Virus record (IMG/VR): IMGVR_UViG_3300050034_000098
Coordinates: 19,924 to 83,923 of that record
Source of the DNA: a virus
DNA: 64,000 bases
Direction: 5' to 3' (one strand)
Part shown: positions 28,896-63,682 of the stretch, in pieces
How positions within the stretch are numbered: position 1 is the stretch's first letter
Layout: each line of letters starts with the position of its first letter
Program-made: the position numbers and the translations under genes
The notes under the pieces: model-generated
Told to the model about the DNA's origin: nothing
Databases searched by the model: none
The model's input: the letters and a program-made list of their open reading frames with translations, nothing else

Positions 28896-29675
28896 ATGCC
28901 AATACCAAAGAAAAAACGTATTAAAAAGAAAGAAGATGAAAGAAATTCATTTACTAAAAATAGAATAATTGTCCACGAAGACTATTTAGAAGTAATAACC
29001 TATACGCATCAAAGCAAAGAAAATGGAACATTTTTGGTAGACTTAGACATGCTCGAGTTTATAAAAACCCACAAATGCAGAAAAGCATCCGCTGGTTATA
29101 TACTATTCGGCAATAGTAATGCCTTATTGCATAGGTTCATAACAAAAGCAAAGAAAGGAGAAAAGGTAGATCATATAAATAGAAATAGATCAGACAATAG
29201 AAAATCTAATTTAAGAATATGTACTGATTTAGAAAATTCTAGAAATAGAGATAAGGATAAAAAAGACAGAAGTTCTAGTTATAAAGGAACATTTTATGTA
29301 AAGAAAAATGAAGGATGGGGTTGTGGAGTCTGGGTTCTTGGTAAATGGATAGGATTTGGAGCATATTCAACGGAACTAGAGGCGGCATATATCTATAATA
29401 TTAATGTAGGTAAATATTTTGGAGAATTTTCAGTATACAATAAGATTCCACAAGAAGATATCAATAGATTAAAGAAAATGAAAATAGAAACATTACAAGA
29501 AAAAAGAAGATCATATTCAAAATATCCTAATGTTACATATAATGTTTGTAAAAAATGTTGGGTATGGAGAAAAATGATAAAAGGTAAACTTTATAATAAA
29601 CAATATTTTAAAACAGCAGAAAGTGCTTATAAGGCTTTTCTTAAATTTGAGGAGGAACTAAAAATATGCCAATGA
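28896..29675 (+). CDS. HNH homing endonuclease with AP2 domains
   Basis: Residues about 80-112 carry an HNH_3-type motif (VDHINRNRSDNRKSNLRIC). Two AP2-like DNA-binding modules follow (SSSYKGTFYVKKNEGWGCGV; KYPNVTYNVCKKCWVWRKM). This is a typical free-standing phage homing endonuclease: it nicks or cuts a target site so that its own gene spreads. It lies between the replication genes, 10 nt into the nuclease gene that follows. Confidence 0.85.
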   Translation: MPIPKKKRIKKKEDERNSFTKNRIIVHEDYLEVITYTHQSKENGTFLVDLDMLEFIKTHKCRKASAGYILFGNSNALLHRFITKAKKGEKVDHINRNRSDNRKSNLRICTDLENSRNRDKDKKDRSSSYKGTFYVKKNEGWGCGVWVLGKWIGFGAYSTELEAAYIYNINVGKYFGEFSVYNKIPQEDINRLKKMKIETLQEKRRSYSKYPNVTYNVCKKCWVWRKMIKGKLYNKQYFKTAESAYKAFLKFEEELKICQ

Positions 29676-34966: not shown

Positions 34967-37900
34967 TTGAATAATAAAAAATGGTATGATAACGAAATTA
35001 GCCAAGGAATTATGAAAAAGAAATACTTTCATGATGGAGAAACGTGTTTTAATGATATTGCAACTAGAATTAGTAATATTTATTCCGATGATATTAAAAA
35101 AGAAGTGTATAATGCACTTAATAAATGCGACATTTTACCAGCAGGAAGAACAATTGCAGGAGCAGGATTAAAAGGAAAGAAAAATGTGTCACTTTCCAAC
35201 TGCTATATCTGTGAAAGCCCTCAAGATAATTTAGAGTCTATTAGTAAAGTAGACTTAGATATGTCCATCATCGGAAGTAGAGGGGGTGGAATTGGTTGTT
35301 CTTTAGATAATATTAGACCAAAAGGAACTATTATTAATAATTCGGCTAAGTATTCTGATGGCGTAGAATTTGTATTAAGTAAATACAATAGTACTGGAGA
35401 ATCAATCGGTCAGAATAACCGACATATGGCAATGATGATGGCATTAAGTTGCACTCATCCAGATATTTATGAAATTCTTAATATTTTTATTAAAAACGAA
35501 AAGCTATCAGCAATGAATATTTCTATTAAATTTACTGACAATTTTATGCAATCAGTTATCGATAACAAAGAAGTTGAGTTATATTTTAAGGTAGAATCAA
35601 CGGGTGAAGAAATTAGAAAAACTATTAATGCAAAAGAGTTCTTTAATAAGTTTTGTGAGGTAAATAAAGACTTTGGTCAACCTGGGTTAATTTTTATTGA
35701 TAGGGTTCAACGAAATAATCTTTTAAGTGGTTACTCCGAATACCAAATTGAAGTATCAAATCCGTGTGCAGAATTTTTTGGTAATTCGGGTAATAGTTGT
35801 TTAACTGGAGATACCATTATTAGAACAATTGATGGTGTTCGTCAGCTAAAAGAACTTGTAGGAACATCAGGAATGGTATACTCAACAAATGATAAATATG
35901 AAAAATATGATAATGTTATCAGTAAGGGAACAAAAGAAGTCTATGCAGTAAAACTCCATAATGGGTTAACAGTAAAAGCAACAAAAGATCATAAGTTTTT
36001 AACAACATTAGGGTGGAAAGAGTGTAAAAATTTAGTTGTTGGAAAAGATAGTATAGTTGTAAATAAAGTATATAATGTTTTTGCAGTTAATGATTATGAC
36101 GAAAGATATGAGATGTTTGGGTGGATGCATGGAGACGGTTGGTATGGAACTACTACTGTTGGTATTTCTTTTAATTATGGGGATGGAGATAAGGATGTTA
36201 AAGAACGATTGTTACCATTGTTCAAAGAAGAATTTAAATGTAGTACTAATTCACCTCTAAAGGATGATGATGCATCATACCAGTTACAGTGTGCAACCCA
36301 ATATGCCATGCAACACTGTAAAGATATTGGATTTGTTCAACAACGTGCATGTAACAAAGAATTACCAACATCATTTTATGGTTGGACATTAAAACAGCAA
36401 ATATCCTTTATTCGTGGACTAATGACAGCCGATGGATTTATTACAGGGACAACAAATGCACAGGTAGCATTTTGTTCGACAAGTAGTAAACTGATTCACC
36501 AAATTCAGAATTTCTTTTATGCAATTGGACTACAGTCAAGATTAATGGCAACTGTTTTTAGAGAAGAATTAAATCGTAAACCACAGTATAAATTAATATT
36601 GGCAGGCAAGAGTGCTAAAAATTATCACAGAATTTTTGGGTTTTCTGGTAGTAAAAAAGAAGATAAGTTTAAACCCGGTATTGTAGATACTAGAAAAGAT
36701 AGTTTTATTATAGATAGTATAGAAGTTTGTGGAAATGAAGAAGTATTTGATATTTTAAATGTCAATGATACTAATGCATTTTATGCTAATGGTATGGCAG
36801 TTCATAATTGTAATTTACAAAGTATTAATTTATATAATTTAGTTAAAAATAAGTTCACAAAAGATGCAAAAATTGATTACGATTTATTAGTAAAAAATGT
36901 TAAGTTATCAATTGATATGTTAAATCAAACATTAGATTATGGATATGATATGCAACCACTTGATATGAATAGAAAATGTATTGATGACTGGAGAAGTATT
37001 GGACTTGGAGTATTTGGTCTAGCAGATATGTTTGTAGCCCTTGGAGTTGGATATGGCTCAAAAGAATCAGTAGATCTTGTTGCAGACCTATTTGAAAGAA
37101 TTAATTATACAGCACTAGAAGAATCATGTAACCTTGCAAGAATTAATAAACCATTTGGAAAATATGATTGGAATAAAACAAAAGAATCAGGCATGATTAA
37201 AGAATTAGAGTTTACAAATGAAACATTATATAATAAGATTATGAAAGATGGTCTTAGAAACGGAACACTAATTTCTGTAGCCCCGACGGGAACCCTTAGT
37301 TTATTTGCAGGTGGTCTTGCAGGAGGCGTAGAACCTCTCTTTAAGGTCAGTTATGAAAGAACGACACACTCAACAGAAGATAAAGGAATTAAATTTAGAG
37401 TATTTGCCAAGTCAGTAAAGGAATTACTAGAATATAATAACCTACCATTGACAACTTCCGATGAAGAAATTAAAAAATTATTTCCATTTATTATAGAAAG
37501 CCAAGAATTAAACCCGACCGATAGAATTAGAGTTCAATCAATTATGCAACAATATGTAGATAATGCAATTAGTTCTACTATCAATTTACCAAAAGGAACA
37601 ACAACCGAAGAAATTTCTGATATTTATTTAGATTCATGGAAACAGGGATTAAAAGGAATTACAGTTTTTGTGGATGAATGTAAACGTGCTAATATTTTGG
37701 GTGTAACTGATAAAAAAGATAATGAAATTGTATTTGATTCTATTGTACCTGAAAAACGAAGAAAAATTAAAAAAGTAAATGGTAATACCTATAAGAAAGA
37801 AACCTCATGCGTACCATCAATGTATGTAACAGTTAATAGAAATGATGCAGGAGATATTTTTGAAGTGTTTACGGCAACGTCATCTGGATGTAAAAGTAAC

Positions 37901-38212
37901 ATTGGAACTATTACAAGATTAGTATCTTATGCCCTTAGGAGTGGATCTAGTGTAAAAGGAATTATTAATGAATTAAAAGAAAATAAGTGTGAAGCTTGCC
38001 AATTATTAAGAAGAAAAGGAAATAAAGAAATTTCAAGTTCTTGTGGAAATGCTATTGCAGAAGCCCTTGAAGAAGAGTATAATAATGGTAAAGAAGTAAA
38101 AGAAGTAAGTACCGATGGATTAATGAAGTGTCCTGAATGTGGAAAATACTCACTAAAACTTGATGGGCACTGCCAGACGTGCCAGGAATGCAGTTGGTCC
38201 ATCTGTAATTAA
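34967..38212 (+). CDS. nrdJ: Class II (B12-dependent) ribonucleotide reductase with intein
   Basis: Reduces ribonucleotides to deoxyribonucleotides for phage DNA synthesis. The precursor is 1,081 aa; without the intein (residues 278-614) the enzyme is 744 aa. Catalytic NPCAE (N265, C267, E269) is followed 11 residues later by the redox cysteine of CNLQSINL, now residue 615; this spacing matches the class II active site. SVAPTGTLS (PTGT nucleotide loop) and the C-terminal CPECG...CQTCQEC cysteines also fit the adenosylcobalamin type. No NrdB-like gene is nearby. TTG start behind GAAGGAGATTAAAAT. Precedes thyX and dut. Confidence 0.9.
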   Translation: MNNKKWYDNEISQGIMKKKYFHDGETCFNDIATRISNIYSDDIKKEVYNALNKCDILPAGRTIAGAGLKGKKNVSLSNCYICESPQDNLESISKVDLDMSIIGSRGGGIGCSLDNIRPKGTIINNSAKYSDGVEFVLSKYNSTGESIGQNNRHMAMMMALSCTHPDIYEILNIFIKNEKLSAMNISIKFTDNFMQSVIDNKEVELYFKVESTGEEIRKTINAKEFFNKFCEVNKDFGQPGLIFIDRVQRNNLLSGYSEYQIEVSNPCAEFFGNSGNSCLTGDTIIRTIDGVRQLKELVGTSGMVYSTNDKYEKYDNVISKGTKEVYAVKLHNGLTVKATKDHKFLTTLGWKECKNLVVGKDSIVVNKVYNVFAVNDYDERYEMFGWMHGDGWYGTTTVGISFNYGDGDKDVKERLLPLFKEEFKCSTNSPLKDDDASYQLQCATQYAMQHCKDIGFVQQRACNKELPTSFYGWTLKQQISFIRGLMTADGFITGTTNAQVAFCSTSSKLIHQIQNFFYAIGLQSRLMATVFREELNRKPQYKLILAGKSAKNYHRIFGFSGSKKEDKFKPGIVDTRKDSFIIDSIEVCGNEEVFDILNVNDTNAFYANGMAVHNCNLQSINLYNLVKNKFTKDAKIDYDLLVKNVKLSIDMLNQTLDYGYDMQPLDMNRKCIDDWRSIGLGVFGLADMFVALGVGYGSKESVDLVADLFERINYTALEESCNLARINKPFGKYDWNKTKESGMIKELEFTNETLYNKIMKDGLRNGTLISVAPTGTLSLFAGGLAGGVEPLFKVSYERTTHSTEDKGIKFRVFAKSVKELLEYNNLPLTTSDEEIKKLFPFIIESQELNPTDRIRVQSIMQQYVDNAISSTINLPKGTTTEEISDIYLDSWKQGLKGITVFVDECKRANILGVTDKKDNEIVFDSIVPEKRRKIKKVNGNTYKKETSCVPSMYVTVNRNDAGDIFEVFTATSSGCKSNIGTITRLVSYALRSGSSVKGIINELKENKCEACQLLRRKGNKEISSSCGNAIAEALEEEYNNGKEVKEVSTDGLMKCPECGKYSLKLDGHCQTCQECSWSICN
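35798..36808 (+). mobile_element. Intein with LAGLIDADG endonuclease inside RNR
   Basis: In-frame 337-codon insert. It starts with Cys (SCLTGDTIIRT, block A) and ends GMAVHN followed by Cys (block G). Removing it restores GNSC-NLQSIN. A block B-like stretch (LTVKATKDHKFLT) is visible. The central part carries two dodecapeptide motifs (FGWMHGDGW and IRGLMTADGF) of a LAGLIDADG homing endonuclease. The +1 extein residue is the redox cysteine of the enzyme, so the enzyme needs splicing to work. Confidence 0.93.
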
Positions 38213-55870: not shown

Positions 55871-56296
55871 TCATCTCCTTCTAAACCCAATTTTAAATCC
55901 CTTTTCCCAAAAGTCTCTATGCGATATAAATGAACTTTCAGGCATTTCTGATGTGTTCCATTGTTTACTATGTGGAAAAGTTGTTAATAATTTACCATAT
56001 TCTAAATATATACCACAATGAGATTCACCATTTATCATGAAAAGTACTATATCTCCAAATTGTAATTCTTTTGATTTTTTTATTTTATTCATGTTTTTTA
56101 TAAAGAATCGTATCATACGAAATGGTGTTTTTATATACCAATCTTCTTCGAATTCTCCATCATATATTTCTGGCTCCCAATTATGCTCTTTATAAAAGAG
56201 CCTTACAAGACCAATACAGTCTGCTGAGTCGTGTGAAAACCCAGCAAACTCATATGGTATTCCTATATATTTATTTAGAACTGAAATCGTATCCAT
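55871..56296 (-). CDS. NlpC/P60 tail peptidase, gpK-like (141 aa)
   Basis: Catalytic Cys in SADCIGLVRLF (residue about 27), His in ESHCGIYLEYG and a later polar residue, fitting NlpC/P60. It may cut peptidoglycan peptides at entry or process tail parts. ATG overlaps the tape-measure stop by 26 nt; order tape measure, K-like, M-like, L-like, J-like. Confidence 0.85.
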   Translation of the reverse strand: MDTISVLNKYIGIPYEFAGFSHDSADCIGLVRLFYKEHNWEPEIYDGEFEEDWYIKTPFRMIRFFIKNMNKIKKSKELQFGDIVLFMINGESHCGIYLEYGKLLTTFPHSKQWNTSEMPESSFISHRDFWEKGFKIGFRRR

Positions 56297-59200
56297 GCGC
56301 TGTCATCCTTTGTATCTGAGAATATAATGAATCGTCTGTTTGTTGCTGTTGCAAAACTGCCATTTGTGGTGATTGTTGAGAATTATTATTCCCTAGTTTA
56401 CCAAGCATCGTAACTAGTATTTTATTTTGATTTACTAATATTCCATTAGTTTCTTTCATGGACGTTGTGCTCTGGCTTATTAATTGTGTAGCATTTTTCT
56501 GTGTTCCTGAATTTATATCAGGTGTTAACTGTTTACCAAATGAAGAAACACCCAACTTATTTGCCGCATGATTAAGAAGTGCCACTGAATTTTTAGTATT
56601 CTTTTCTACAGGAACTACTACCTCTTTACCATCTTCACCAGCAATCGAAGGTCCATTCGTTTCTCCACCATCAGCAAACCAATTAAACATTTTTCCTGCA
56701 CTTTGTAATAATCCCAAATAATTTGAGCTATTTCCGCTTGATGATGATTTTTTATTATTTGCACTATTTAGTAAATCAGCATTACCAAATGAATAATCTG
56801 TTGATTGTTTATTATTAAAATCAGTATTTGGTAATAAACTCGTTGCAAGTGATGCTATATTTTCCCCAGAATTACTTGAGTTTTTATTATTACTTCCTAG
56901 TTTATTTATTAACTGGCTGAATAATCCACCCGTGCCAGATTGTATTCCCATAAGTGATTTTAAAGCCTCTTCGGCTAGTTGTTCCCATAATTTTTTAAAT
57001 ACTTTATGAAAATCTTCACCTTTTAAAAGAATTGAATCAAAAACACCTTCGGCAGATTCTTTCATCTTTTTGGTTGGTTCATCAATAGCATCTTGTAGGT
57101 CTTTTTGAGTTTGTGCCAACTGTAGTTTAAAGTCTCTATATTTCTCCGTGTCTTCGGCAAATATACTATTCTTTTTAGCTTCAATCATAAGGCTATTTAG
57201 TGCGGCAATTTTTTGTGTATAATAATCTATTTCTGTAGTTTGATTAGAATTTTCATCAGACAGTGATTTTGTTGGATGTTTTAATTTATCCATAGCCTTT
57301 TGATAATCTAGTCCTGACATAGTTTGCTTATATTCTGTTTCTGGAGTTGTAAAAGCTGATTGCTGTTCAAGTTGATTTTTAAGTTCTAGGTTTTTGACAC
57401 GTTCTTCATTTGCTGTTGGATTGGTAAATATATCAATACCTTTTTTCTTGTATTGATTCATTTCAGCATCAGATATTGCAACTTGTCTTTCTAAACCACC
57501 TTGAGTTGAAACTGCTTTTGTTCCTTCGTTTCCAGATATACCCTGCATAGCGTTTTGCATTCTAGTAATTAAATCAGATTGTTTGTTTTGGTAATCAGCT
57601 ACTTCTTTTATTCCTTTGATTGTTTCTTCATATTCTTTTTGCTTTGCTTCTGTTATTTGCTTTTGTATTTCTGATGATTTCTTTTCTTCTTCACTAATTT
57701 GGTTTAAATATGCTGTAATAACTTTAGCATTTGCAATCTGATCTTTATTTTGATCTATAAATTCTTTTTTAGAATCTGTGGACATTCCAGACCATTGGGT
57801 TTTTGTCATACCTTTTGCGGCAAGAACCTCTTCGGGAATAGTAACTGAAACTTCTATTTGTTGACCACCTAAACTACCTGATTCATATTGCCCCATTACA
57901 TCCCTTGCATTTTTCTGTCTATCAGGATTTGCTGGTTCTGCTGGTCTTTCATAATATTTAGCAAAGGCGTAAGCGTACTGTTCAGGTGTTGTTGAATCAC
58001 TATTTAAGAATTTAGAAGTTGAACTTGCTTCGGTTGTTTTCATTTCTTGTATTAAAAATGCTAACTGAGTTTCTAAAGCCGTTACATCTGAATTGTTATT
58101 TTGTGCAAATTCATTTAATGCATCTCTACGACCACCAGTCCATTGTCCAATACCATATGAACCACTACCATCATGAGCATAAATATTAGGTTGTATTCCA
58201 CTTTCAGTCATTAAATTACCAACAATTGCAGATGCCTGTTCAGGTGTGTATCCTTGTTGCATAATTGTATTCATTGCAATGGATTCGTTTGAGCCACCAC
58301 CACTTGTAGTAGTTATTGCAATATTTCCACCACTAGCAAGTTCATTCAGTTTTGCAACGTCTTTATCTATTTGTTCTTTTAGTTTACTTGAAGTATCAGT
58401 AAGTGATGCAATTTTACCTTGATATGAGCCTAATTTACTATCTAACAAATCATAAGAACTACCAAGTCTGTTTGCCATATCAGAAATTCTTGATAATGAT
58501 TCAGAAAATTTATTATTAGAAATTGTATTGGCATCGACAATTGCATTATATCCAGCCTTGCTTAATTTCTGTTCTATCTGTTCTGTTTGGTCAGTTGGCA
58601 TACTTTTACCAGCCTTACCCTTTTTACCTGTATCATCAACCTCTGATCCACCCGAAGATATTCCTTTAAAGTCTGGAAGTCCTGCTAATTTAGTTTCTGC
58701 TATTTTTTTATCTATTTCTGCTTGTTGTAATTTTAGTTTATTTAATGGACCTTCTTCTGTATTAATAATCTTTTGATTATAATAGTCAAGATTATATGAA
58801 GCACCTTCTAATTCTTGCTGTGCCATTTCTTGTCTACGTTTAATTATATCATTTCCTGGATTATCTTCGACATCTTTTGTTGTATCTGCTAAAGCCTTTT
58901 CAGAAGCACTCTTTTGTTTAGAAGCAATATCGGCTTGCTCTCTATAATATTCGTCTTGAATTGTTTTCCAAATTCCTAATGCATTTATTTTAGAAGCAAT
59001 ACTGTCATTAAAGTTTTTAGCATCTTGCCAATATTCATCTATTTGTGTTTCTATTACTGCTTTTTGATTCTCTAGTGAAACAATCATTTCTTTACGAAAT
59101 TCACCAGCGGCTTGCTTTTTAGCTTCTATTGCATCTGTAAAACTTTGAGCTTCTTTCTCATACGCTTCTTTAGTCCATCCTGCATCACGAATGGTATCAA

Positions 59201-60530
59201 CTGCGGCATCTCCCATAACTTTCCTTAGTTCAGTTTCAGTTGTGCCTCTATTTTTTAATGCATTATTATATTTATCAGAACCTTCTGTTGACGTTTTTAC
59301 GATTCCATCTAATTTTACATAAGCACCATACATTGATTCACTAAATTCTTTTTGTTTTTGAATCGTTTCAATTTGTTGTCCTGCTAGTGCTATCTGGTCT
59401 TGTTTTGTTGCAATACTTTCTTTTTCTTTTTGATCTTCTTCGCCAAGTGCATTTGTATAAGATTCTAAGGCATATAATCCTGCTGTTAATGCAAGTGTTA
59501 TTGCAATCATTGGACCGCTTCTGCCAAGTGCTTTCATTGCAAGTGCTAACCCTTCGGTAGCAGAGGTGGTTTCTCTTATTTTAGTAGCTAAATTTGCTAC
59601 GGTTGCAATTGTTTCTGCTGTTACGAATTTTTTAAGCAATGAATTTACGGCGGCTAGTGTTATTGCTAGTTTAGCTAATGAGCCAACTGCGCTTAATGTT
59701 TCAGGACTGATTTTCTGCAATCCCATAACGAAAGCATCTATAGAAGATACTTGTTCTTTAAAGAATTGAGTTAGTCCCCCTTGCCCTGAATTTGAAATGA
59801 TTGAAGCCATATCAACCTTTAATGATTGGAGTCGTCTGGAAAGAGTATCCATTTGCATAATTACTTGTTTATCTGTAAACCCAACACTATTAACTGCTTC
59901 TCCCCAAGTTCTTATAAATTCATTATAATCACCAAGGGTTGCGGCTACTTTGGAATACTGCCATTTACCACCAGCCATATTCTTGTAAACGTTCTCTAAG
60001 GATTTATCAGTTTCTTGTGCGGCTACAGCTACATCAAGCATTACATCTTGTGCTTTTCTAAACTCTTTCTGTCCGTCATTACCAATTTTATAAATTGATA
60101 CACCTAATTTATCAAGTTCGGCTACGGCTTTATCAGAGTGAAAAGATGTATACAGAGACTTGAGCATTGTGCCAATTTCATTTCCACTTTTACCAGTAGC
60201 ACGAACGCCCGTTGCAATCTGTGCAGATAAAAATTCAAAGTCTGCCCCTGCGATATGTGCGGCTGATCCTGCTTGTTCAACCCCTTTTGCAATATCTTGA
60301 GCACTTGCTCCTGCATTATGTGCTAACTTAGTCCACACATCAATGACGTTACCTGAATAAGCCATTGCTTCACTAGTATTCTTTGCAGTTAAGCCATATT
60401 GGAACATTGCGGCTTCTACGTATTTATTTGCTTCTGCCATGCTAAAGTTATCGGCTACTGCTAGTTTAGTTGATTGAGATACTAGGGCATTAACAGTGTC
60501 TATATCTTTATATGTTCTTGCCCATAACTT
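56271..60530 (-). CDS. Tape measure protein, exon 2
   Basis: 1,419 codons after the predicted splice (exon 2 begins K-L-W-A-R-T-Y-K at 60530). It opens in the TP901-type tape-measure core (EANKYVEAAMFQYGLTAKNT; GVRATGKSGNEIGTMLK). Hydrophobic stretches follow near ETLSAVGSLAKLAITLAAVN and GPMIAITLALTAGLYALES, long coiled coils, then a phage tail lysozyme domain (ASAIVGNLMTESGIQPN; GSGSYGIGQWTGGRRDAL). The end has a Ser/Asn-rich linker and FADGGETNGPSIAGEDGKE. With exon 1 the protein is 1,699 aa and sets tail length. Confidence 0.9.
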   Translation of the reverse strand, partial: KLWARTYKDIDTVNALVSQSTKLAVADNFSMAEANKYVEAAMFQYGLTAKNTSEAMAYSGNVIDVWTKLAHNAGASAQDIAKGVEQAGSAAHIAGADFEFLSAQIATGVRATGKSGNEIGTMLKSLYTSFHSDKAVAELDKLGVSIYKIGNDGQKEFRKAQDVMLDVAVAAQETDKSLENVYKNMAGGKWQYSKVAATLGDYNEFIRTWGEAVNSVGFTDKQVIMQMDTLSRRLQSLKVDMASIISNSGQGGLTQFFKEQVSSIDAFVMGLQKISPETLSAVGSLAKLAITLAAVNSLLKKFVTAETIATVANLATKIRETTSATEGLALAMKALGRSGPMIAITLALTAGLYALESYTNALGEEDQKEKESIATKQDQIALAGQQIETIQKQKEFSESMYGAYVKLDGIVKTSTEGSDKYNNALKNRGTTETELRKVMGDAAVDTIRDAGWTKEAYEKEAQSFTDAIEAKKQAAGEFRKEMIVSLENQKAVIETQIDEYWQDAKNFNDSIASKINALGIWKTIQDEYYREQADIASKQKSASEKALADTTKDVEDNPGNDIIKRRQEMAQQELEGASYNLDYYNQKIINTEEGPLNKLKLQQAEIDKKIAETKLAGLPDFKGISSGGSEVDDTGKKGKAGKSMPTDQTEQIEQKLSKAGYNAIVDANTISNNKFSESLSRISDMANRLGSSYDLLDSKLGSYQGKIASLTDTSSKLKEQIDKDVAKLNELASGGNIAITTTSGGGSNESIAMNTIMQQGYTPEQASAIVGNLMTESGIQPNIYAHDGSGSYGIGQWTGGRRDALNEFAQNNNSDVTALETQLAFLIQEMKTTEASSTSKFLNSDSTTPEQYAYAFAKYYERPAEPANPDRQKNARDVMGQYESGSLGGQQIEVSVTIPEEVLAAKGMTKTQWSGMSTDSKKEFIDQNKDQIANAKVITAYLNQISEEEKKSSEIQKQITEAKQKEYEETIKGIKEVADYQNKQSDLITRMQNAMQGISGNEGTKAVSTQGGLERQVAISDAEMNQYKKKGIDIFTNPTANEERVKNLELKNQLEQQSAFTTPETEYKQTMSGLDYQKAMDKLKHPTKSLSDENSNQTTEIDYYTQKIAALNSLMIEAKKNSIFAEDTEKYRDFKLQLAQTQKDLQDAIDEPTKKMKESAEGVFDSILLKGEDFHKVFKKLWEQLAEEALKSLMGIQSGTGGLFSQLINKLGSNNKNSSNSGENIASLATSLLPNTDFNNKQSTDYSFGNADLLNSANNKKSSSSGNSSNYLGLLQSAGKMFNWFADGGETNGPSIAGEDGKEVVVPVEKNTKNSVALLNHAANKLGVSSFGKQLTPDINSGTQKNATQLISQSTTSMKETNGILVNQNKILVTMLGKLGNNNSQQSPQMAVLQQQQTDDSLYSQIQRMTAHGYDFSSK

Positions 60531-61538
60531 CTTTATTTGTTACTCTCTTTTTTTCAAAGAGGGATAGGTCATTTCTGCCTATCTCTATACCTTCATTTTG
60601 TTATACGTATAGAACGGACTATGCCATAATCCTAAATTTCTTTAGGACTGGAGTATGGTAGTCTCTGCGGGTCTATTATTATACTTAGGGAATATAATAT
60701 CTTTGGTTAGATATGTCCAGTTTTTATGAGCTTTTATAGCATCTATACAAGACTTTTTAACATTATATATAATAGCGATATCTTTTATTTTTATTTCTTT
60801 TAATATCATAATTATAATATTTTTTACGTCTTGTTCACTTAACTTTGCTTTTGGATGATTCTGACCAGTAAAATTAGCATGATTTATTGACATTATTTTT
60901 CTTGTGTCTTTAGAATGTTTTTTATCTTTAAAAGGAGAAACTTTACCAAACATTGGATTTTTGATACCCATCTGTTTGCCTTTTCCTTTTATGCTAATTT
61001 TTAATTTAGTTTCATCTGAATGATGCTTCCCATAAAAACCATTACCTTTACCAATTGTAGAAATTTTTCTTATTTTACTTAAAAGTGCTTTGGTCTTTTC
61101 TGTGTGGTGACGACCTAGCATCACTGATTTATCTGGAATCGCAATATTAAACCCAAATTCTTTATTTAATAGATTCAATTTATTAACCCAGTATAATTCT
61201 CTGATTGTTAAATTTTCTTTTTCACACTCTTCAATAACTTCAAATAAGAAATTTTCTTTACCATATTTATTCCACGAGTTTTGCAATAAAGAATTGGGAT
61301 GAATATTTTTTGCAAGGTCTCTTTTATGTTCCATAACTCTTTTGTGGATATCAACACTTTGACCTATATATTTTTTATTATTTATAATATTTGTTATGCA
61401 ATAAATACCTACCAATTATCTTCCCCTTTTCTTTAAAACAAACAATAGTTTCCCTCACGATTGTCCACTTCTGGATTTTCCGTGATATAAACTCCTTTTC
61501 ATTAATGCATTACTGCACTACGCGGCAAGTTTTCGTTT
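60531..61538 (-). mobile_element. Group I intron in the tape measure gene (1,008 nt)
   Basis: It interrupts the TP901 core; removing it joins ...VIDSG to KLWARTYKD in frame. P1 forms between exon end CGGU (61542-61539) and GCCG in the intron, with the expected U-G pair at the splice site. P10 forms between AACUU just before that GCCG and exon-2 AAGUU (60530-60526). The intron ends in G. P7 is GACUA (60663-60659) with UAGUC (60621-60617), and P8 is the CCUAAA/UUUAGG hairpin between them. P9-like hairpins follow. A homing endonuclease gene is inside. Confidence 0.9.
60642..61415 (-). CDS. GIY-YIG homing endonuclease of the intron (257 aa)
   Basis: N-terminal GIY-YIG domain (VGIYCITNIINNKKYIGQS, with conserved Arg/Glu later: KRVMEHK, NLTIRELYWVNK). 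Several NUMOD3-like DNA-binding repeats follow (GRHHTEKTKALLSKI; GKHHSDETKLKIS; GKVSPFKDKKHS) and a C-terminal helix-turn-helix. TTG start 61415 behind AAAGGGGAAGATAA. Its stop (CC TAA) lies within the P7-P8 core of the intron, so gene and ribozyme overlap. It spreads the intron to intronless tape-measure alleles. Confidence 0.92.
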   Translation of the reverse strand: MVGIYCITNIINNKKYIGQSVDIHKRVMEHKRDLAKNIHPNSLLQNSWNKYGKENFLFEVIEECEKENLTIRELYWVNKLNLLNKEFGFNIAIPDKSVMLGRHHTEKTKALLSKIRKISTIGKGNGFYGKHHSDETKLKISIKGKGKQMGIKNPMFGKVSPFKDKKHSKDTRKIMSINHANFTGQNHPKAKLSEQDVKNIIIMILKEIKIKDIAIIYNVKKSCIDAIKAHKNWTYLTKDIIFPKYNNRPAETTILQS

Positions 61539-62378
61539 ACCGGAGTCAATTACTTTATCAATAGTTTCTCCATACGTACTTGCAATACTAATAAATTTAT
61601 CTTGCTCAGTATTTAGTGCCGCTTGTGCAACAGTTTGTTCACTTATACCAGTTTTTGCGGCTACCGTTGCAATTGCCGTATGGTCTATTACCTGATTCAT
61701 TCCCGCCATGCCAGTATCTAGCTTTTCTAGTGTAGTAAATACTTCATATGGGATTGCTGTTACTGCACCAAGTAATGTTCCTGCTGTTATCCAATATAAA
61801 TGACTCTTCAATTTATTGCTAAAACTAATTCCTCGCTCAGTTGAATTATCAAAAGCTACACCCATTTTATTTATTTCTTTAGTTAACTCTTGAGCACCTA
61901 CTTTAATTTTAGAAACATTTTGTGCATATTCTCTTGCTCCAATATTTCCTTTTGAATAGTCGTAATAATTATTCATCCATTCAGATTGTAAACCACTTTT
62001 GGCTTGACTAAAATAATTAGTTCCTCTACTTTGTTGGGCTTTAGCTTGTTGCTCTGCATCTCTTTGTGCTATCTTTAGTTTTTCTTCTGAAGCTTTTCTA
62101 AATATCTCAATTTCACGATTGGCTATCTTATTAACATTGTCAAGCCTTGAAGCATTTAATTTGTCTAATTTAGATATAAATTCACCTTGAAGTTTTTGTG
62201 CTTCTTCAAGACTTCTTTTTACGCCATCAATATTAATACTTAGTCCAGTTTTATTCGCTTGTTCAATTGCTTTTTGTAAATTACTTATGTCTTGTTTTAT
62301 AGTAGTAATATTATTATCACTAGCCTTAGTATCTACTACTATATCAAACCCTATTCGATTACTTGTTTCATCTGCCAT
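61539..62378 (-). CDS. Tape measure protein, exon 1
   Basis: 280 codons from ATG 62378 (behind AGGAGGTGAAAAG) to GGT 61539. The helical N-terminus (ASDNNITTIKQDISNLQKAI) and the start of the TP901 core (SFSNKLKSHLYWITAGTLLG; ISEQTVAQAALNTEQDKF) belong here. Without splicing, the frame would add six wrong residues (KRKLAA) and stop at 61518. Confidence 0.9.
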
Positions 62379-63022: not shown

Positions 63023-63049
63023 CATAAAAAAAGACGCTTACTGCGCCTT
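63023..63049 (-). terminator. Terminator after the free-standing endonuclease
   Basis: Read leftward: AAGGCGC-AGTAA-GCGTCTT (7 bp, one G-U) followed by TTTTTAT, overlapping the endonuclease stop at 63038. It lies between the endonuclease and the chaperone genes. Confidence 0.7.
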
Positions 63050-63682
63050 ATATTCATCAGGAAAATTAAGTCTATTTAATTCATGAAAATTATCATAACA
63101 AACTTTATCAAAAGCCCTAGCGGCTTCTTCTTTACTTTCATATCTGCCAATAGAAATGCTTTTATAATTAATTCTTATTTTAGATACCCATTTATTCCTT
63201 TGATTATCTCTAGTTACTCCTCTAAAACCACTTGTATTTCTACTAGTAATCTGCCCGCTATTTTTATAACTTTTTTCTTTTTTAAAGTCATCTGGCATAG
63301 GATTAAGGACTATGTGATTTAATTTTTTATTAATTCTACCTCTTCTGTTTGCCTCGCCAATTCTTTTCTTTTGTTCTTCTCCTAGTTTATATCCTGCAAG
63401 ACCGCCAGTTTCGGTATTATATCCATATTCGTTATCTGTAGTTTTAAACCTTTTAATTAAAGAAATTTCCAGATAACCTGCATTCTCATCAACATATTCA
63501 CCAATTAAAACCATTTCAAAAGAATCTTTGCCATATTTGTCATATTCTTCTTGCATTAATTTAGATTTACTAGTGCCTCTTCTTAGCATACTTTTGTGAT
63601 CATTAAATCTTCTTTTATAGTTTACTGTAATTCCAAAATATTTCTTACCGTTTATTTTATTATTTATCATATACAAATACAA
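63038..63682 (-). CDS. Free-standing GIY-YIG homing endonuclease with AP2 domain (214 aa)
   Basis: GIY-YIG-like start (YLYMINNKINGKKYFGITVNYKRR), a conserved Glu region (AGYLEISLIKRF), a NUMOD3-like GEEQKKRIGEANRR, and a C-terminal AP2 DNA-binding module (SGFRGVTRDNQRNKWVSKI). TTG start 63682 with AAGGAG 7 nt upstream. Own promoter and terminator. It separates the major tail protein gene from the chaperone genes, which are normally adjacent. Confidence 0.88.
   Translation of the reverse strand: MYLYMINNKINGKKYFGITVNYKRRFNDHKSMLRRGTSKSKLMQEEYDKYGKDSFEMVLIGEYVDENAGYLEISLIKRFKTTDNEYGYNTETGGLAGYKLGEEQKKRIGEANRRGRINKKLNHIVLNPMPDDFKKEKSYKNSGQITSRNTSGFRGVTRDNQRNKWVSKIRINYKSISIGRYESKEEAARAFDKVCYDNFHELNRLNFPDEYKAQ

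Follow-up and report, generated by a model that had tools for sequence, protein, structure and literature searches.

The tape-measure protein (TMP) gene of this phage is almost certainly interrupted by a self-splicing group I intron which encodes a GIY-YIG/NUMOD3 homing endonuclease and whose ORF-less kin have spread within the same gene. The window, i.e. the whole stretch of 64,000 nucleotides that was analysed, belongs to an IMG/VR virus record of 83,923 bp.

Splice sites and restored reading frame

Three ORFs occupy the minus strand of the region: two outer ones (62378-61518 and 60440-56271) and, between them, one that initiates with TTG (61415-60642). We assigned the following features:

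61539-62378, minus strand: TMP exon 1, 280 codons, ATG at 62378; its frame joins exon 2 without a stop after intron removal
60531-61538, minus strand: group I intron, 1008 nt, 3'-terminal G; P1/P10 and frame, family covariance models, 71/73 homologues continuous, same site occupied in locus L272
60642-61415, minus strand: 257-aa ORF of the GIY-YIG/NUMOD3 homing endonuclease, initiated by a TTG that follows AAAAGGGGAAG, stop in P8; Pfam, TIGR01453, I-TevI
60642-60680, minus strand: overlap of ORF and ribozyme core, 39 nt, in which the last 12 codons and the stop cover P6a', P6', P7 and P3' and enter P8; also in L272A
56271-60530, minus strand: TMP exon 2 through the stop codon, with PF10145 and a Phage_lysozyme2 domain; profile matches, joined frame

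The intron has a length of 336 x 3 nucleotides and reads AAACG...AATAAAG. The 5' exon terminates in ...GACTCCGGT (61539) and the 3' exon begins with AAGTTATGGGCA (60530). Unspliced, the frame of exon 1 terminates 21 nt inside the intron. When the intron was excised in silico, a single open TMP frame of 1699 amino acids was obtained with the joint VIDSG-KLWARTYKD. Exon CGGU pairs with intron GCCG, located 12 nt inside the intron, to form P1 with a U.G at the cut. P10 comprises 5 bp between AACUU, beside the guide, and AAGUU, bases 1-5 of the 3' exon. The splice coordinates proposed by an earlier sequence-only reading of this DNA thus were correct to the base with respect to P1, P10 and frame, and the restored joint, P7, P8 and the terminal G which it had named were all present.

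The identity of the host gene is based on PF10145 (phage minor tail/TP901-type tape measure), which is matched by the second part of the fused protein, on matches to TMP PHROGs, and on the downstream genes, a J-like central tail fibre and other tail genes. The PF10145 match sets in about 6 residues past the joint. All nine aligned TMP homologues share an R and a Y shortly past the joint. The insertion, which the sequence-only reading had placed in the TP901 core as a conserved site, is next to these residues and borders the PF10145 match on its N-terminal side instead of being in its middle. Most of the closest TMP relatives come from metagenomes, with one Sporomusaceae MAG and one Alicyclobacillus phage as named sources, so that a Bacillota host is weakly indicated.

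Empty and occupied sites in related tape-measure genes

The sequence-only reading had proposed an alignment with intronless TMP genes. Of 73 TMP loci, 71 were uninterrupted at the site, among them the Sporomusaceae MAG and the Alicyclobacillus phage. The two exceptions, L272 and L223, carry introns of the same family. In L272 (IMGVR_UViG_3300021400_000494) an intron of 1085 nt is inserted at the identical nucleotide, GCCGGT/AAACTAAAAC...AATAAAG/ACCTTATGG (slashes mark insertion points here and below). Like the window intron it follows GGU, has the guide ACUUGCCGC and encodes a homologous GIY-YIG/NUMOD3 ORF with its stop in P8. Unlike the window, L272 has a second, ORF-less intron at another TMP site, and its P10 is weak and not conserved (3' exon ACCUU). 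Between L272 and the window, protein identity is 51% for the endonuclease but 29% and 43% for the two TMP exons; the intron ends are 68-70% identical at the DNA level. Hence, the intron is better conserved than its host gene, as would be expected of a horizontally mobile, though old, element.

L223 is on the same contig as L005 (IMGVR_UViG_2100351000_000027) and contains two ORF-less introns, one inserted 12 nt farther downstream than that of the window and the other at EIG/NML. L005 shares intron family and gene with the window, and the exon 3' of the site is 75% identical. In contrast to the window it has two TMP introns and no endonuclease. Its 12-nt-downstream copy follows exon GGGGU and has the guide GCCCC, i.e. 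P1 was compensated once. A more distant TMP, L019, has an intron of the same family with a different ORF; relative to the window site, its insertion point is shifted 6 nt downstream. This ORF (L019:661-1572, minus strand) had no Pfam match; by eye, its C-terminal half looks like a Vsr/EDxHD-type nuclease. A length difference in the TMP of L004 was considered as an intron and rejected; it is at the protein level and the gene is continuous at the site.

The ribozyme core and its covariation

In the window intron P2, P3, P4, P5, P6, P6a, P7, P8, P9, P9.1 and P9.2 all form:

61539-61542, minus strand: P1 5' strand, exon CGGU, U.G at the cut; paired in 9/9 relatives, compensation in L005a
61527-61531, minus strand: P10 strand on the intron side, AACUU; partner AAGUU at 60526-60530 in the 3' exon
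61523-61526, minus strand: P1 3' strand, internal guide sequence GCCG; pairing with exon CGGU
61503-61520, minus strand: P2 hairpin UAGUGCA/UGCAUUA; both-sided changes at 7/7 pairs in relatives
61491-61495, minus strand: P3 5' strand GGAGU; pairs with 60650-60654, different perfect P3s in L272A, L005a and L229B
61455-61485, minus strand: P4 (UCACG/CGUGA) and P5 (UCC/GGA); nine-core comparison, also the weak RF00028 alignment
61441-61454, minus strand: 5' strands of P6 (GGG) and P6a (CUAUUGUU); partners at 60669-60671 and 60673-60680
60659-60665, minus strand: P7 5' strand, G-A(bulge)-GACUA; pairs with 60616-60621
60650-60654, minus strand: P3 3' strand ACUCC; partner of GGAGU
60630-60647, minus strand: P8 hairpin UCCUAAA/UUUAGGA; pairing
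60616-60621, minus strand: P7 3' strand UAGUCC; pairing across 66 sequences
60545-60613, minus strand: P9 UCUAUAC/GUAUAGA, P9.1 GAUAGG/CCUAUC and P9.2 CUCUUU/AAAGAG; 90.3%, 99.7% and 87.6% of cells paired (66 relatives)

P6 is GGG/CCC and P6a is CUAUUGUU/AAUAAUAG. The sequence of P3 varies, yet it pairs in the window, L272A, L005a, L005b and L229B.

The 66 aligned sequences were drawn from 88 of 113 selected by exact P7 complementarity. Because of this selection the five P7 pairs were excluded as independent evidence; the pair spanning the bulge, P8, P9, P9.1 and P9.2 were unselected. The bulge-spanning pair was formed in 66/66 sequences (GC 35, AU 26, CG 5). When P7-P9.2 of the window was imposed on the 66 relatives, aligned by sequence only, 87.5% of the cells were paired compared with 62.1% in shuffled and 31-45% in slid controls, and 540 both-sided changes were counted versus 169 in shuffled ones. 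Misalignment of P9.2 and of some columns of P8 lowered their counts. In nine complete cores of TMP introns, P3 pseudoknot included, 88.0% of the cells were paired (67.9% shuffled, 33-45% slid), with both-sided changes at 42 of 63 pairs.

When the window was left out of model building, the covariance model still had the intron as its sole match in the 64 kb (82.6 bits, E=3e-17); inclusion of the window raised the score to 88.1 bits. With the family model no additional introns of this family were found in the window or in its 84-kb record. The 3'-end family motif GCAGAAATGAC-N(15-35)-GAGTAACAA occurred once in the window compared with 0 in 100 shuffles, and in more than 120 stretches of IMG/VR, a lower bound. 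A DNA-level search of phage records returned a 59-bp match of the endonuclease only, and none for the L005b intron.

A covariance search had been suggested by the sequence-only reading. It was positive with our own family model but not with Rfam: at the gathering threshold Rfam had no match in the window, and RF00028 reached 13.7 bits at the intron (gathering score 50). The T4 td intron, used as a control, also remained below 50 (40.3 bits). Therefore, the Rfam result probably reflects a shortcoming of the RF00028 model and not the absence of an intron. At the relatives' loci, ORF-less introns included, Rfam similarly had no group I match. As a side aspect, RF00028 misses a large phage intron family with its compact ORF-less members, and phage annotation based on it under-counts introns. 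Taken together, fold, covariation, frame and empty and occupied alleles agree with the earlier claim of a group I intron inside the TMP gene; the missed RF00028 score and the P10 that is not conserved in L272 speak against it.

The intron-encoded endonuclease

The endonuclease ORF resides in the loop of P6a, which is closed by a few bases in ORF-less relatives (L005). It matched PF01541 (4.9e-10) and PF07460 (1.3e-12) and scored 116.5 bits with TIGR01453, group I intron endonuclease (cutoff 56). The catalytic domain aligned with that of I-TevI (E=8e-16) with GIY, YIG, KR..H and RE.W in register. The fold of the region of its ribosome-binding site showed no strong structure (z -1.7).

As the sequence-only reading had noticed, the stop codon (60642-60644) sits in the P7-P8 core, i.e. 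within P8. From this a mutual constraint of ribozyme and protein had been deduced. The overlap is real; the constraint is weak because only the last 12 codons, past the endonuclease domains, are affected. Similarity to other phage endonucleases ends at about residue 236, therefore the protein can probably do without the overlapping C-terminal tail. The L272 endonuclease has VETTISLP as its tail (window AETTILQS) and its stop is likewise in P8, as expected if the RNA dictates the overlap. A frame of at least 100 codons that ends between P7 and P7' was present in 14 other family members. Endonuclease ORFs which reach into the ribozyme core have been described before (PMC3984707 Fig. 2b). Most of the 58 loci of endonuclease relatives were not beside the same intron type (2 weak matches), thus the histories of intron and endonuclease are partly separate.

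Two further endonuclease ORFs were noted in the window. Some 0.7 kb upstream of the TMP gene, a free-standing GIY-YIG endonuclease with an AP2 domain (63038-63682, minus strand) is flanked by two ORFs. An HNH endonuclease ORF of 259 aa (28896-29675, plus strand) adjoins an exonuclease ORF.

Can these data be explained without a functional intron? A degenerate intron with a dead ribozyme or endonuclease would leave the TMP as two separate polypeptides. Both halves are translatable separately, given the in-frame ATG of exon 2 that opens a 1389-aa ORF and the end of the exon 1 frame 21 nt into the intron. However, every core helix is intact and covaries, the ORF is open and its GIY-YIG domain can be aligned to I-TevI, the two frames join exactly and that of exon 1 stops just inside the intron, and a similar intron with its ORF was retained in L272, a TMP that is 29-43% identical. 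We regard degeneration as very unlikely. The TMP gene might also have been split by a free-standing endonuclease gene without a catalytic intron. This phage has free-standing homing endonuclease genes such as the one at 63038-63682, and the relatives of the intron endonuclease in other phages are mostly not beside the same intron type. Yet a full group I core surrounds the ORF and the frames are joined exactly, which makes such a split exceedingly improbable. We consequently retained the reading of an intact group I intron with its own homing endonuclease.

One guide sequence at three positions of the tape-measure gene

Introns with the guide (A)ACUUGCCGC were found at three TMP positions, each after CGGU. 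SG/KLW is occupied in the window and in L272, EIG/NML in L005b and L229, and GGR/KFQW in the second copy of L272, in L217 and in L222, and, with AUUUGCCGC, in L215. L272 has introns at two of these sites, GGR/KFQW and SG/KLW. Among the relatives within the TMP gene, L005, L272C, L217 and L215 have no ORF and a short P6a loop. The introns at the third position are:

L272:3550-3796, L217:3808-4069, L215:3814-4085 and L222:3745-4243: GGR/KFQW short introns, same or nearly same guide

Same-guide copies were not found in 36 other TMP loci. The same guide at three positions, each after CGGU, indicates that the gene has been invaded repeatedly by introns sharing one guide.

How did the introns reach these positions? 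The two candidate routes are relaxed cutting by an endonuclease and reverse splicing directed by the guide. Chances are about even that the spread was driven wholly by endonucleases and not by the guide sequence. Homing of group I introns via endonucleases is well established (PMC3984707), and two copies with the ACUUGCCGC guide, those of the window and L272A, contain the GIY-YIG ORF. On the other hand, the three target sites are alike in little except the CGGU that matches one guide, and several copies are, with 243-272 nt, too short for an endonuclease. Guide-directed reverse splicing of one lineage within the TMP gene may tentatively be considered, as a rather doubtful proposition.

Comparison with known systems

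The sequence-only reading had considered a TMP host gene uncommon. This was overstated. The TMP of ICP1 has three introns which were verified by RNA-seq and RT-PCR, and TMP genes were called 'frequently interrupted' (PMC10448857, PMC9040626). Group I introns in mycobacteriophage tail genes have been verified as well (PMC3706429). Among 85 downstream exons in the present intron family major head proteins were commonest and at least 7 were TMPs (phrog_4211 alone 7; PF10145 5). TMP introns as such are already known; the most interesting addition is the repeated invasion by one guide. ICP1 resembles the window in host gene type, in the presence of homing endonuclease genes and in having several introns per TMP. 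It differs in that its endonuclease is HNH-3 and not GIY-YIG, and that splicing has been verified there. The ICP1 TMP was not recovered as a homologue of the window TMP. The family model had its sole matches with E<1 in the ICP1 genome (0.45 and 0.7) at the two ends of the TMP intron region. This is suggestive only, and a claim of homology between the introns of ICP1 and the window was dropped as the match was too weak.

The T4 td intron with I-TevI belongs to group I as well, and its GIY-YIG ORF, too, is looped out ahead of P7. Its host gene is thymidylate synthase instead of TMP, and the stop codon of I-TevI abuts P7 whereas the window ORF extends into P8, about 25 nt beyond this point. In the window core P7 is followed straight by P3', whereas in T4 additional sequence, P7.1/P7.2, separates P7 from P8. 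The family model scored 17.4 bits with T4 td. Enterococcus phage EF1 shares 59 bp of the endonuclease ORF at 88% identity, and the region of its split ribonucleotide-reductase gene had family model matches of 21-23 bits. The host gene is another one and, by score, so is the intron family.

The large subunit of the ribonucleotide reductase of the window (34967-38212, plus strand; 1081 aa) contains an intein with an N-terminal region (278-346), Intein_splicing (311-614) and LAGLIDADG_3 (477-557). In ICP1, too, an intein in the ribonucleotide reductase occurs together with TMP introns (PMC9040626).

Proposed mechanism and implications

We propose that the RNA of the TMP transcript folds into the P3-P9 core, the structure of which is shown by covariation. 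An external G would dock in P7 and attack after the U of CGGU that is paired with the guide GCCG. The freed 5' exon would then join the 3' exon held by P10, and the 1699-aa TMP would be formed; self-splicing with exogenous G is what we infer from this architecture. The I-TevI-related endonuclease from the P6a-loop ORF is predicted to cut intronless TMP alleles near the site, and double-strand-break repair would copy the intron in, i.e. homing. ORF-less introns of the lineage with the same guide have settled at two or more additional positions in this gene.

For a prediction of tail length the length of the TMP is 1699 aa here, not 1389 aa, and split tape-measure genes in metagenomic phages are to be read as intron-interrupted and not as two genes. 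The window intron is a well-resolved example of a large phage family missed by the Rfam group I model. With one guide, three sites and one gene, the system is tractable for separating endonuclease homing from reverse splicing. If spread by reverse splicing were true, the TMP gene would provide an example from nature of phage introns whose transposition is driven by RNA.
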